NCBI RefSeq assembly: GCF_033472595.1
Contig: NZ_CP137642.1
Location: forward strand, 372,001-436,000
Direction of reading: 5' to 3'
Source: Methanoculleus receptaculi
Lineage (GTDB): Archaea > Halobacteriota > Methanomicrobia > Methanomicrobiales > Methanoculleaceae
Length of the DNA stretch: 64,000 nucleotides
Shown piece by piece: positions 46,896 through 52,054 of the stretch. Numbering within the stretch: position 1 is the first letter of the stretch; each line of letters opens with the position of its first letter. A program made the translations under genes and the position numbers. The notes under the pieces are model-generated. The model searched no databases. It saw only the letters and a program-made list of their open reading frames with translations, and was not told the DNA's origin.

Positions 46896-47750
46896 CTACT
46901 GTGTCTCTCCGATACTGCGGAGAACTGCCTGCATGACCCTATCCACATGCTCCCACGTGGGGTTATCCGCGCTCATACCCGGACGCCGGACGATGAAGGG
47001 GCGTCCTTCGTCACCGGCTTTGCGCATGTCGGGGTCCAGAGGGATATTGCCGAGATACGGCACGCCAAGGTCCTCTGCGGCCTTCTTCCCCCCGCCCTGT
47101 CCGAAGAGGTCGATCTCCTTGCCGCAGTGCGGGCAAACCATGCCACTCATGTTCTCGACTATCCCGAGAACCCTAATATCCATTTTCTCGACGAACTTTA
47201 CGGCTTTGGTCGAGTCGAGTATGGCAACCTCCTGCGGCGTAGTAACAATAACGGCACCGGCAACGTTCGGGGCGAGCTGGATGATCGATAACGCCTCGTC
47301 TCCCGTGCCCGGGGGCAGATCCACCACGAGGTAGTCCAGATCTCCCCAGTAGACATCTGCGAGGAACTGTTTGATGATCTGCATCTTCATGGGGCCGCGC
47401 CAGATGACAGGAGTGCTCTTATCCGGCAGGAGAAACGCCATCGAGACGACACCAAGTGCTGGCACCACGTATACCGGTTCGATCCTCGTGCCGTTCGTCG
47501 ACGTGAGTTTGGTCTCCTCGATGCCCAGCATCTTGGGGATGTTGGGGCCGTGGATATCGAGATCGAGAAGGCCCGTCTGGTAGCCGTGGTTCGCAAGCGC
47601 CATTGCAAGGTTCGCGGCCACCGTGCTCTTCCCGACGCCCCCCTTTCCGCTCAGCACCAGGATGACGCGCTTGACGCTCACGGAAACCTTTTCAAACGGG
47701 TTTTTCTGCTGCTGTCCGGCATCCTTCGTTGTATTGTCTGTTTCTGCCAT
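46896..47750 (-). CDS. Mrp/NBP35-type Fe-S cluster carrier ATPase
   Basis: A 284-aa deviant P-loop ATPase: SGKGGVGKST at about residues 34-43, DLDIHGPNIPKMLGI, VVDLPPGTGDEALS, and the CPHC motif near residue 205 that binds a bridging Fe-S cluster in this ApbC/Nbp35 family. It loads clusters into target proteins. Divergently, 327 bp away, starts an operon whose products hold many Fe-S clusters, a sensible pairing. Confidence 0.93.
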   Translation of the reverse strand: MAETDNTTKDAGQQQKNPFEKVSVSVKRVILVLSGKGGVGKSTVAANLAMALANHGYQTGLLDLDIHGPNIPKMLGIEETKLTSTNGTRIEPVYVVPALGVVSMAFLLPDKSTPVIWRGPMKMQIIKQFLADVYWGDLDYLVVDLPPGTGDEALSIIQLAPNVAGAVIVTTPQEVAILDSTKAVKFVEKMDIRVLGIVENMSGMVCPHCGKEIDLFGQGGGKKAAEDLGVPYLGNIPLDPDMRKAGDEGRPFIVRRPGMSADNPTWEHVDRVMQAVLRSIGETQ

Positions 47751-48076
47751 AACGTACCCTCAGCACCTCATCTTGGTGGGCGGAATCGTCCGTCCACCGG
47801 TCACGAAGTGATTGTGAGCCCACACGAGTGTTCTTCCCGAACAGGATCATGCAACACGGCTCGCACAATAATGTTAACAACGTTAACAGAAAGTAGTATT
47901 GATACTTACATGTTCGGCCCCTCTCAGGGATACACGGCGATCCACGGCACCCACCGGATCTACTCCCTGAACGGTTCTCCGCCGGGAAAGGGCCGGAGAT
48001 CGGTTCGAAACCTGTCTTGCCGGGAACCCCACGTTAAAGAGAGGGTATTGACACAGGGTAGAACGAGGGATATGTG
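47751..48076. other. Intergenic region between Mrp and the redox operon
   Basis: About 325 bp without a gene. Contains the two dyads listed separately and a moderately AT-rich patch around 47865-47910, the likely promoter zone. The part from 47930 to 48060 has no recognisable element. Confidence 0.5.
47873..47887. promoter_or_regulatory. Paired palindrome GTTAAC-N3-GTTAAC
   Basis: Two GTTAAC palindromes spaced by 3 bp form a symmetrical 15-bp element in the AT-rich centre of the divergent promoter region; a 12-bp palindrome AGTATTGATACT follows at 47895-47906. Likely binding sites for a transcription factor controlling one or both divergent operons. Confidence 0.5.
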
Positions 48077-49165
48077 ATGGCATTTGATCTATCGAAATGC
48101 GACTTCTCCCGCTGCAGGGGAGAATGTCTCGCCCGCTGCCCGTACGTATCATATGATGAGGACGACGCAAAGAGAGCAATGAAGTCCCTGATAGAGGGAG
48201 AACGCCACCAGATCCTGAAAGAGTGCATCACCTGCGCAGCGTGCAACGATTTCTGCCCGCTGGGCGCCGATCCCTGGGACCTCATCGCACGGCGGCAGGA
48301 AGAGACGGATGCTCTTGGCATCCCGGCGGACGCAAAGCCGTCGAGCGACTGGCTGACGAAACCGGCTGTAGTCATCCGGAGGGGCAAGCCGGGAGGGGCG
48401 CTGATCTCGGCCGGCGGGATCTACGAGGTGGTGCCCCAGGCGGAGTTCCTCACGGGACAGGTGTTTGAGGACGCAACCATCATCGGGGGAGGGCCGTACG
48501 CGTGCGGGTTTACCGAGACCCACCTCGGCCGGGCGTCCCGGCCGCTGAAGAACCTCCCGCACTTCATAGAGAATCTCGCGAAAGCGGCCGAAGAGTTCGG
48601 GGTCGACGAGATCGTCTTCACCCACGACGCCTGCTACAACGTGGCGACGACCCTCGCGATGCAGCAGGGGATCGAGGTGCCGTTCCGATCGGTCCACATC
48701 CTCGAGTACATCAGGAACTGGCTGCGCGACCACCCTGACCGGATCACGAATCCGCTCGGCATCAGCGTCGCGGTGCAGGGCGGCTGCACGACCCGCTACG
48801 CCCCGAAAGGCGGGGACCGTGAGATCTGGTCGGACTGGCTCGCCGATATCTTCGAAATGATCGGTGTAGAGTCCGTCGAGGAGAAGCGGACGTATACGGG
48901 AGATGACCGGCTCTGCTGCGGGTGCGGGATCTTCCACACCCAGCACGAGCGTGCAATCGAGATCCAGCGTAAAAACATCGGCGATGCCGCCAAAGCCGGT
49001 GCCGAAGAACTCGTCTTCATCTGCCCGGCCTGCATCTCCGTGATGCGGGCGACCTGCCGGAAGATGGAACTCGAGCCGATCTACATCACCCAGCTCGTGA
49101 AGCAGGCGCTGGGCGAGGAACTCGGACCCGCCGGAACCGCCGCGTTCGGGTATCCGGTGAAGTAG
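48077..49165 (+). CDS. HdrC/HdrB-like fused iron-sulfur protein
   Basis: A 362-aa protein. The N-terminal third has a ferredoxin-like pair: CDFSRCRGECLARCP and CITCAACNDFCPLG, typical of HdrC/GlpC modules. The C-terminal part holds one complete CCG-type cysteine set (GGCTTR, LCCGCG, CPAC), as in HdrB, and a poorer first copy (YACGF, HDACYN). HdrB-type domains bind non-cubane 4Fe-4S clusters and reduce disulfides; the substrate here is unknown. ATG 48077 is chosen; GTG 48074 directly precedes it. First gene of a four-gene operon. Confidence 0.87.
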   Translation: MAFDLSKCDFSRCRGECLARCPYVSYDEDDAKRAMKSLIEGERHQILKECITCAACNDFCPLGADPWDLIARRQEETDALGIPADAKPSSDWLTKPAVVIRRGKPGGALISAGGIYEVVPQAEFLTGQVFEDATIIGGGPYACGFTETHLGRASRPLKNLPHFIENLAKAAEEFGVDEIVFTHDACYNVATTLAMQQGIEVPFRSVHILEYIRNWLRDHPDRITNPLGISVAVQGGCTTRYAPKGGDREIWSDWLADIFEMIGVESVEEKRTYTGDDRLCCGCGIFHTQHERAIEIQRKNIGDAAKAGAEELVFICPACISVMRATCRKMELEPIYITQLVKQALGEELGPAGTAAFGYPVK

Positions 49166-49183
49166 CCAGACGAGGTGAGAAGA

Positions 49184-49675
49184 ATGGTGAAGTTTACGAA
49201 GGAGATGAAAGAAGCCCTGCGGGTTCCTGGCAAGGGGGGGAGCCTGATCTACCTCTGCACGTCGAGCAGGGACGGCAACCCGAACATCGCCGCGATGCGG
49301 TTCGTCGCCACCCACATGGACGACAAGATCCTGATCGCCGATATGTTCCTCTTGAAGACGAAGGCGAACATCAAGGAGAATCCCAACGTCGCGGTCACGA
49401 TCTGCCACCCGCTCGACGAGGGCCGCTGGTGGGTCTTCCGGGGCAAAGCCGTGGACATGGAGTACGGGTTCCCGCGCGATTTCGACTGGTACGGCGCGAA
49501 CGCAACGGATATCCTGAACGAATGGGGGAACTGGAACAAGGCCGAACCGCCGGATGAGGTGCCGCCGGACATCGTCTTCCCGAAAGCCGTCCAGCGCGGG
49601 GTTGTGGTCGTGCATGTCGAGGAGGTCTACTCCATCGAGCCGGGACATGTAGGAGAGAAGGTTCTAACGGGGTGA
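49184..49675 (+). CDS. FMN-binding split-barrel protein (PNPOx-like), first
   Basis: A 163-aa protein with the pyridoxamine-phosphate-oxidase-like barrel: LIYLCTSSRDGNPNIAAMRFVATHMDDKILIADMF, KENPNVAVTICHPL, and a C-terminal VVVVHVEEVYSIEPGHVGEKVL. Members bind FMN or F420 and act as small redox enzymes or flavin carriers. ATG 49184 is preceded by GAGGTGAGAAG. It follows the HdrCB-like gene by 18 bp. Confidence 0.85.
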   Translation: MVKFTKEMKEALRVPGKGGSLIYLCTSSRDGNPNIAAMRFVATHMDDKILIADMFLLKTKANIKENPNVAVTICHPLDEGRWWVFRGKAVDMEYGFPRDFDWYGANATDILNEWGNWNKAEPPDEVPPDIVFPKAVQRGVVVVHVEEVYSIEPGHVGEKVLTG

Positions 49676-49680
49676 TCGGG

Positions 49681-50160
49681 ATGACGGTAAATCTGACAGA
49701 TCGGATGAAGGCATGGATCGAGGCGATGGGCAGCCATCTCTGCGTCGCGACGCCGGAGGGCGTGCCGTTCGTGGTGCTGGGCCGCTATGCGAAGGTGACG
49801 GGCAACGATGAGGTGGCGTTCGCGCTTGCGGCAGATGAGGCGAATGTGATCGCGCCCGTGCTGTCGAAGAACCCGCGGGTGGCGTTCGGCGTCTCGCGCC
49901 AGGGCGGTATCCGTGCCCCATACCAGTTCAAGGGAACCGGAGAACTCCTCCGTTCCGGATCGGTCTTCGACACGGTCGCGGCACAGGCAAAAGAGGAGAA
50001 AGGGATTGACGCGGAATCGGTGCTTCTCGTCCGCCTGACCGAACTCTACTGCACGAAGCCCGGCTACGAGGCCGGGCAGAGGCTCGACGGCATGTCGCCG
50101 GAGGAACTCGATGCGTGGGAGCGACAGCGCTGGAAGGACGTGCCGAGGAAGAGGGACTGA
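49681..50160 (+). CDS. FMN-binding split-barrel protein (PNPOx-like), second
   Basis: A 159-aa paralogue-like protein of the same fold: MGSHLCVATPEGVPFVVLGRYAKVT, NVIAPVLSKNPRVAFGVS, YQFKGTGELLRSG and ESVLLVRLTELYCTKPGYEAG. It is only weakly similar to the first barrel, so not a recent duplicate. The C-terminus ends ELDAWERQRWKDVPRK. Starts 5 bp after the first. Confidence 0.82.
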   Translation: MTVNLTDRMKAWIEAMGSHLCVATPEGVPFVVLGRYAKVTGNDEVAFALAADEANVIAPVLSKNPRVAFGVSRQGGIRAPYQFKGTGELLRSGSVFDTVAAQAKEEKGIDAESVLLVRLTELYCTKPGYEAGQRLDGMSPEELDAWERQRWKDVPRKRD

Positions 50161-50166
50161 GTTCCG

Positions 50167-50439
50167 ATGAGCAACGACGAAAAAAAGATTCCTAAACAGT
50201 TTCCCTGGATCATCCCCTTCTCGTGCGAGGGGTGCGGCGACTGTGTCGAGGCCTGTCCGACCGGCTCGATCGAGCTTGTGGATCTCGGAAAGAAGATCGA
50301 CAAGGCCTGGATCACGAACCCGGAGACCTGCATCGGCTGCGGGAAGTGCGCCGATGCCTGCGTCGTCGGCGCCGTGCAGATGACGTCCTACGTCGAGAAG
50401 GCACTCAAGCGCTACCGCGAGAAGACGAGCCCGGAGTAA
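50167..50439 (+). CDS. 2[4Fe-4S] ferredoxin
   Basis: A 90-aa ferredoxin with two classical motifs, CEGCGDCVEACP (about residues 20-31) and CIGCGKCADACV (about 59-70), joined by LVDLGKKIDKAWITNPET. It is the last gene of the operon and the probable electron donor or acceptor for the HdrCB-like and flavin proteins encoded just upstream. Confidence 0.93.
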   Translation: MSNDEKKIPKQFPWIIPFSCEGCGDCVEACPTGSIELVDLGKKIDKAWITNPETCIGCGKCADACVVGAVQMTSYVEKALKRYREKTSPE

Positions 50440-50572
50440 TTCAGGGATCAGGCTCCTTTTTTACGTTCCCTGAAACACACACCTATGAGAGTGTGATGGG
50501 CACAGCACCGATCAGTACACTGGACCGTGGTGGCTGCGCATCTGATGGTGTGAGGTGCGATGTTCCGGAGGA

Positions 50573-50724
50573 GCGGAGCTTGAGAAACTCGAAGAGTTTC
50601 GAGGGGGGAGCACCCCCTCTCCCCTGTCTCTACTCCATAAGGCTCTACCTGCAACCCCCACCGCCCGCGCTTCGCGCTCCTCCCGCCCCCGAGAGGGGCG
50701 GGCAGTGCGTGACGATAGCCGGTG
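50573..50724 (+). repeat. Modular hairpin repeat, copy A
   Basis: Three modules in order: (1) CGGAGCTTGAGAA, then stem ACTC-GAA-GAGT, then TTCGAG (50573-50602); (2) GGGGG-AGCA-CCCCC followed by CCCCTGTCTCT (50604-50632); (3) CCGCCCC-GAGA-GGGGCGG followed by CAGTGCGTG-ACGATA (50683-50718). All three recur in copy B. Confidence 0.7.
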
Positions 50725-50825
50725 GGAAACCGTGTCCCGGGAGCGAGTTGTGATTCTGTTCTTTTTCGGGATCTCTCAATACTGTGGATCATGGGAATAT
50801 CCCCCCTGGGGATGGGGCTGACGGG

Positions 50826-51001
50826 GAGGGGGCTCGCCCCCACCCCTGTCTCTGCCTCGTATCTCCAGTTTCCAGAATCATTTTATACAGATAACTATAC
50901 GCCTGTAGCCCCCACTCGAAGACCTTTGGTCTTCTCAAGCTCCGGACGTTGTCCCTCGCACCCCGCCCCAGGGGGCGGGGGCAGTGCGTGGCGATACCCG
51001 G
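50826..51001 (+). repeat. Modular hairpin repeat, copy B (module 1 inverted)
   Basis: Contains module 2 (GGGGG-CTCG-CCCCC, then CCCCTGTCTCT, at 50826-50853), module 1 in inverted orientation (50914-50945; reverse complement CGGAGCTTGAGAA, stem GACC-AAA-GGTC, TTCGAG) and module 3 (CCCGCCCC-AG-GGGGCGGG then CAGTGCGTG-GCGATA, 50961-50996). The module 1 stems differ between copies by paired changes. Confidence 0.68.
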
Positions 51002-51109: not shown

Positions 51110-52054
51110 CTACAGAACCCCAAACGACTCAAGCAGCACGTCGGCATTCAGGCTACCGAAGTGATGGACTTCGCCGCTCTTCGAATCGTTCACCGCAACC
51201 TCCGCCGGCGAGAAGGCAAGCAGCGAGTCCACCTTGAGGAAGTCGTAGCCGGCATCCTTGAGCACCCGGGCAAACGGCCTCCCGTAGTCTGGGGAGGTCT
51301 GTGAGGGGAGGGTCGCAAAGACCGGGTCGTAGCCCTCCGCGACGAGGGAGACCGAGCCGTAGTAGATGTTGCAGTCGTTGGTCATCCCCATCGCCTCGAT
51401 GCCGGTCCGCTTTATGGGCCCGATCGGCGATCGGCCCGCCGCATGGCTGATGCGGAGGACGTCGTATCCTCTCTCCTCGAGTTTGTGGAGGGTCGCCGTG
51501 ACGACCCGCCCGGAGATCTGCACCGAGCCGATCAGGCTCCGGGTCGGGGCGACGAGGACGTAGAGGTTTTCGGGTTCGATGCCGCACTTCTCCGCGATGA
51601 AGCCCGTGACTTCCTCGTCCGGGAGGGTGTCCGCCTCCAGCGCGAGGATGCCGATCTCAGAGGCGTCGCGGTAGCCGAGCATTTTGTAGGTATTTTTCGG
51701 CTTTAAGGAGAGCGCCCGCGCCGGACCGGAAGCCATCGCGGAGTAGCCCCCGGCCTTGAGCACCCATCCCGCCTTCTGCGAACCGAGGCACGCGAGAGCG
51801 GGGCGGCTCACGGTGAGGTGCAGGAACGGGACGGGCACGTCGGCCACCCGGCCCATGGTTATCGCCGCCGTCGCAAGCCCCGCAAGGCAGGTCTCCACGA
51901 AGAGGGCGCCCGCCCGGTAACTCCCGGCGACGTGCACGCCGCAGTCGATGCACGTTGCGCCGTTCTCCAGTTCTGCAACCGCCACCCCGAGTTCGTCCCG
52001 GCGGTCGATCAGTTCTCTGACGACAGGCATTGCCGTGCGGTTTACGCTGAGCAT
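51110..52054 (-). CDS. mch: Methenyltetrahydromethanopterin cyclohydrolase
   Basis: A 314-aa enzyme of the methanogenesis C1 pathway, interconverting formyl- and methenyl-tetrahydromethanopterin. Recognisable family blocks are ATCIDCGVHVAGSYRAG, GPARALSLKPKNTYKMLGY, SHAAGRSPIGPIKRTGIEAMGMTND and a conserved C-terminal ESFGVL. The start is placed at ATG 52054 (MLSVNRTAMP); an ATG three codons upstream (52063) is possible. Direct evidence that the organism is a methanogen or close relative. Confidence 0.97.
   Translation of the reverse strand: MLSVNRTAMPVVRELIDRRDELGVAVAELENGATCIDCGVHVAGSYRAGALFVETCLAGLATAAITMGRVADVPVPFLHLTVSRPALACLGSQKAGWVLKAGGYSAMASGPARALSLKPKNTYKMLGYRDASEIGILALEADTLPDEEVTGFIAEKCGIEPENLYVLVAPTRSLIGSVQISGRVVTATLHKLEERGYDVLRISHAAGRSPIGPIKRTGIEAMGMTNDCNIYYGSVSLVAEGYDPVFATLPSQTSPDYGRPFARVLKDAGYDFLKVDSLLAFSPAEVAVNDSKSGEVHHFGSLNADVLLESFGVL

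Follow-up and report, generated by a model that had tools for sequence, protein, structure and literature searches.

The window analysed here, a stretch of 64,000 nucleotides from the complete 1.98-Mb genome of Methanoculleus receptaculi, contains four closely spaced genes, A to D, for a fused HdrC/HdrB-like protein, two split-barrel proteins, and a ferredoxin, followed by a convergent fifth gene, mch2, for a paralogue of methenyl-tetrahydromethanopterin (H4MPT) cyclohydrolase (Mch). The four open reading frames reported in a first, sequence-only reading were confirmed at their coordinates, all on the plus strand and separated by gaps of 18, 5, and 6 bp. The features of the locus are listed below.

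47872..47888, no strand: putative operator, the palindrome TGTTAAC-AAC-GTTAACA, which precedes A by about 200 bp
48033..48076, plus strand: conserved promoter-proximal block GTTAAAgA..GGTATtGACACAGGGTAGAa.GAGGG, upstream of A
48077..49165, plus strand: gene A, HdrC/HdrB-like fusion of 362 aa, with two [4Fe-4S] motifs, a degenerate N-terminal CCG, and an intact C-terminal CCG
49184..49675, plus strand: gene B, PNPOx/FDOR-like split-barrel protein of 163 aa
49681..50160, plus strand: gene C, second, distinct PNPOx-like split-barrel protein of 159 aa, HupZ-like by fold
50167..50439, plus strand: gene D, 2[4Fe-4S] ferredoxin of 90 aa
51110..52063, minus strand: mch2, methenyl-H4MPT cyclohydrolase paralogue, convergent with the operon; translation probably begins with the ATG at 52054, so that the Thr codon listed next is codon 186
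51497..51499, minus strand: ACG (Thr) codon in mch2, in place of the presumed catalytic Glu186 of A. fulgidus Mch

The neighbourhood comparison bore out the expectation that this grouping recurs elsewhere. The order A-B-C-D is kept in all uninterrupted homologous loci, so the arrangement is not due to chance, and A to D make up a conserved cluster whose genes are spaced as in an operon. Homologues of A with 70-97% identity are present in Methanoculleus, Methanogenium, Methanospirillum, and other Methanomicrobiales, the nearest named relatives being Methanoculleus strains. Carriers of the module include Methanoculleus sediminis and Methanogenium marinum strains, and one module-bearing Methanospirillum genome is, we assume, that of M. 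hungatei JF-1.

Most module-bearing Methanoculleus loci have the GTTAAC-N3-GTTAAC core of the palindrome at equal distance upstream of A, and it is still there in one genome (G124) that has lost the operon; the palindrome may serve as an operator. A search of Rfam for an RNA element upstream of A gave no match. The gap between D and mch2 measures 20-50 bp in many lineages and about 670 bp in the window, because dispersed repeats sit there. Two copies of the repeat occupy positions 50480-51001, and about 50 partial matches are found across the genome, often clustered at a spacing of about 260 bp.

Composition and ancestry of the redox proteins

Protein A carries two ferredoxin-like cluster motifs (C8/C13/C17/C21 and C50/C53/C56/C60) ahead of an HdrB-like region, in which C237, C280-C281, C316, and C319 make up one complete CCG site; these Cys ligands are invariant across the family. 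At the degenerate N-terminal CCG, C143 and H183-D184-A-C186 (an HDAC motif) remain and the CC and CxxC pairs are missing. The motifs thus agree with the earlier description of A as a fused HdrC/HdrB-like protein with one complete and one degenerate CCG, and the Pfam CCG model matched the C-terminal module alone. In this layout, and in its top PDB matches, which are HdrB, A resembles the HdrCB part of soluble HdrABC. It differs in being fused, in its degenerate N-terminal CCG, and in lacking HdrA, MvhD, or a donor oxidoreductase. HdrABC is characterised by two intact CCG motifs for two non-cubane [4Fe-4S] clusters, whereas only CCG2 is complete in A, and the scores of A against the curated HdrB model (TIGR03288; 26.2 bits, cut-off 345) and the curated HdrC model (14.7 bits, cut-off 350) were below the cut-offs. 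As had been noticed from the sequence, no genes for HdrA, hydrogenase, or formate dehydrogenase lie inside or beside the operon; nor did an HdrA gene adjoin the module in any of the loci that were read by translation and family scan.

Distant relatives of A, found with a profile of A at about 100-300 bits, are present in Archaeoglobaceae and other families of the phylum; the name of the family follows from one genome, which we take to be that of A. fulgidus. Their neighbours are FAD_binding_4 oxidases together with a second CCG protein (GlcF/HdrD-like), or an enoyl-CoA hydratase, or other genes, and B, C, D, and mch2 were absent alongside them in the loci inspected. The HdrD-like CCG proteins of Archaeoglobaceae (GlcD/GlcF and LldEFG/Dld-type clusters) have the same fused architecture as A, with a degenerate first CCG (SLC..FC..HDEC) and an intact second one, but they are partnered by the FAD_binding_4 oxidase and second CCG protein instead of split barrels, ferredoxin, and Mch2. 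Since the degenerate first CCG is common to the whole A family, the single-CCG state is old.

Matches to families, folds, and motifs also upheld the assignment of B and C as two distinct PNPOx-like proteins and of D as a 2[4Fe-4S] ferredoxin. B scored over the Pfam cut-off for PNPOx_N; C scored slightly below it (26.9 vs 28.1 bits) and is predicted to fold as a split barrel. The best Foldseek E-values to split barrels were about 4e-7 for B, whose model is of moderate quality only (pLDDT 67), and about 6e-9 for C. The predicted folds of both proteins resemble FMN, F420, and heme proteins, including the PNPOx/FDOR split-barrel flavoproteins Rv1155, MSMEG_3380, and HupZ/HutZ, and the closest folds carry differing cofactors. 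In sequence, however, B and C score far under the cut-offs of the curated families; B, for example, reached 25.6 bits against TIGR03618 (F420-dependent PPOX-class oxidoreductase), for which the cut-off is 79.05. Among the genomes searched, strict B orthologues (about 355 bits) were confined to those bearing the module, and the next match scored 57 bits. The B frame of one metagenome-assembled genome (loci L023 and L051) is interrupted at codon 9 by an in-frame TAA and is otherwise intact; the stop is either an error or a recent nonsense mutation. Protein D has two CxxCxxCxxxC motifs, CEGCGDCVEAC and CIGCGKCADAC, and scores over the Pfam Fer4 cut-off.

Linkage of mch2 to the operon and its altered active site

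The product of mch2 is about 45% identical to the canonical Mch copy and contains a full-length MCH domain (391 bits vs the 25-bit Pfam cut-off), with four matches to Mch in the PDB. We found a convergent mch2 downstream of the operon in all 17 loci compared, which represent at least three genera. Across 35 genomes of the genus, those with the module have two mch copies and those without it have one, with exceptions at contig ends, and no genome among them lacks the operon while having an intact mch2. Two genomes that seemed to carry mch2 without A (G152 and G154) were rejected as contig-end artefacts, because the contig starts inside B and cuts it at base 1. The contig of G120 stops before the expected mch2 start, and G145 has a fragment of A alone, at a contig end.

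It is worth describing G124 (locus L207, 3529-6813), in which A to D are lost and a remnant of mch2, frameshifted and with about 50 codons deleted, lies directly between thiM and mrp. The assembly of this genome is fragmented and single frameshifts in it could be errors; the absence of the operon together with the internal deletion in mch2 points to joint decay. In several genomes without the module, the thermosome gene adjoins thiM, which represents the empty site. These results show that mch2 is obligately linked to A to D and is inherited and lost together with them.

Strong purifying selection acts on each of the five genes. The dN/dS values start at about 0.014 in B, which evolves most slowly (0.014-0.037), and reach about 0.20 in D; Mch2, at 0.057-0.148, is no pseudogene. 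The pairwise divergences of A and Mch2 are correlated (r = 0.977), as expected of any co-inherited genes, and we do not read this as a sign of physical contact. To the sequence-only reading, A to D had looked like a self-contained electron-transfer unit, one that it could match to no described complex. Its coherence stands, given the fixed order, the strong purifying selection, and the shared presence and loss, and such a unit was absent from the literature searched. The set of four was nevertheless incomplete, and "self-contained" is not borne out: mch2 had been left out, and in all loci of sufficient length A to D are tied to this second, catalytically altered Mch.

Other neighbours were considered as partners and rejected. 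Mrp (46896-47750) is not a sixth member, since Methanogenium, Methanospirillum, and some Methanoculleus do not have it beside the operon; thiM occurs without the module, and the thiM/thiE pair does not adjoin it in other genera. The module does not replace canonical Mch, which is kept in module-bearing genomes, and it does not replace Mtd, which almost all genomes of the genus possess, whether they carry the module or not.

Mch2 aligns with A. fulgidus Mch along its whole length and shares the characters of the family (Pfam MCH; PDB 4gvq/4gvr/4gvs, 1qlm, and 4fio). Ordinary Mch have 107 nearly invariant positions, and Mch2 keeps 74 of them. Every aligned operon-linked copy has Arg183. At the position of Glu186, 21 of 21 operon-linked Mch2 have Thr and the other 41 Mch in the alignment all have Glu, and 186 is the sole position among the 107 that has been swapped for one single other residue in every operon-linked copy. 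The Thr-type Mch form one clade (support 100/98). Operon-linked Mch2 thus differs from Mch in having Thr for Glu186, in accompanying a canonical Mch, and in being tied to a redox operon. Glu186 of A. fulgidus Mch is the proposed catalytic base. The residue is reportedly essential for catalysis according to the paper on the Mch structure, and the other basis for its role is the deposited E186Q variant (4gvr/4gvs vs 4gvq, the sequences of which differ at that position).

Two further types of divergent Mch were observed. In G009 and G003 (loci L203 and L204), a separate Mch, with Leu for Arg183 and Ala for Glu186, has other neighbours and no adjoining redox operon, and by its sequence appears to be an independently altered Mch. 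At L199, L200, and L201, another Mch, 38-39% identical to the query, keeps Glu186 and has a conserved place beside a gene for a putative DedA-like membrane protein, named by eye.

Possible functions of the module

The combination, in some hydrogen-consuming methanogens, of a redox operon and an Mch of preserved overall form but without its catalytic residue suggests an undescribed electron-transfer machine that acts on, or is controlled by, a methanopterin-bound C1 unit. We tentatively favor a ferredoxin-linked oxidoreductase of an H4MPT-bound C1 intermediate, in which a chain of ferredoxin, HdrCB-like protein, and split-barrel flavin works with a non-hydrolysing Mch2; of the readings that use all five parts, this is the simplest. 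Mch2 would still bind methenyl-, methylene-, or formyl-tetrahydromethanopterin but would not activate water, hydrolysis being prevented by the loss of the water-activating Glu, and it would offer the C1 unit of the pterin to electron transfer instead. Ferredoxin D, giving or taking low-potential electrons, would exchange them with the two cubane [4Fe-4S] clusters of A, and these with the one non-cubane cluster that the same protein would bind at its CCG site. That cluster would in turn exchange electrons with the cofactor of B and C (FMN or F420, heme being less likely), and the cofactor with the pterin-bound substrate. The module would work beside canonical Mch and F420-dependent Mtd, not in their place. 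It weighs against this reading that mch2, lying on the opposite strand, is not cotranscribed with A to D, and that CCG sites belong more typically to disulfide or thiol reactions than to pterin reactions. A more specific picture is more doubtful: an undescribed enzyme complex whose Mch, repurposed and no longer hydrolysing, hands methenyl/methylene-H4MPT or a related pterin to a ferredoxin-fed Fe-S/flavin chain.

The main rival follows the sequence-only reading, which had suggested a ferredoxin-linked disulfide or small-molecule reductase with FMN or F420 and with which the findings are compatible: a ferredoxin- or F420-linked reductase of a disulfide (or of a polysulfide or persulfide), which we judge possible but rather improbable. 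The CCG cluster of A would cleave the disulfide, as the match of this site and its surroundings to HdrB would allow, with the split barrels and the ferredoxin as plausible electron carriers. Mch2 would be a sensor or regulatory subunit reporting the C1 status of H4MPT, a role that suits a protein which has kept its conserved residues and lost catalysis. But A has one intact CCG where HdrB uses two, HdrA or another electron-donating oxidoreductase is absent, and no feature is specific to a disulfide substrate. The link to Mch2 points to a methanopterin-bound C1 substrate instead of, or besides, a free disulfide.

Two other explanations seem unlikely to us, and about equally so. In the first, the module would re-reduce oxidised (dihydro or aberrant) methanopterin during pterin repair or biosynthesis, in the manner of the flavin/ferredoxin dihydromethanopterin reductases of the DmrX type, with Mch2 as the pterin-binding subunit. 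The probable H4MPT-binding scaffold, the flavin and ferredoxin parts, and a patchy distribution that suits an accessory role in stress or repair fit this idea, but the sequence kinship to Dmr enzymes amounts to generic ferredoxin motifs, and close relatives do without the module. In the second, Mch2 would still be a cyclohydrolase, or another C1-pterin enzyme, that is merely a genomic neighbour of A to D and functionally uncoupled from them. This would agree with the opposite strands and the repeat-filled 670-bp gap in the window; it is at odds with the linkage in all 17 loci, the shared presence and absence, the decay of mch2 once the operon is lost, and the invariant E186T exchange. Finally, the neighbours of the distant A homologues bring to mind a branch that takes up electrons from the oxidation of hydroxy acids or acyl-CoA, a role that has been proposed for FAD-oxidase/CCG clusters in Archaeoglobus (PMC3949148 discusses lactate dehydrogenase clusters of A. 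fulgidus that consist of FAD oxidase and CCG proteins). This is very improbable, as the module has other partner genes and no FAD-linked oxidase or acyl-CoA gene adjoins it in the loci read.

A description of the five-gene module was not found in the open-access full-text literature, which given that scope is weak evidence of novelty, and a locus-tag search of the same literature for Mhun_238x and Memar_023x-025x gave nothing on the genes of the module. In the genome paper of M. hungatei JF-1, Mhun_0022, Mhun_0444, and Mhun_2384 are all given as Mch for the same step (PMC4704411). The operon-linked copy is, by position, most likely Mhun_2384. Its annotation to the same step is probably wrong, because the operon-linked copy uniformly lacks the catalytic residue and always goes with the redox operon.

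The methane pathway is commonly viewed as complete, and additional mch genes are annotated as redundant. The ideas set out here are testable in culture, since the module is carried by M. sediminis, by Methanogenium marinum strains, and presumably by M. hungatei JF-1. If the module exchanges electrons with H4MPT-bound carbon, it would be a new ferredoxin- or disulfide-linked C1 branch in common syntrophic methanogens; if the complex with a repurposed Mch is real, Methanomicrobiales would gain a second, ferredoxin-linked redox entry to the C1 branch of methanogenesis.
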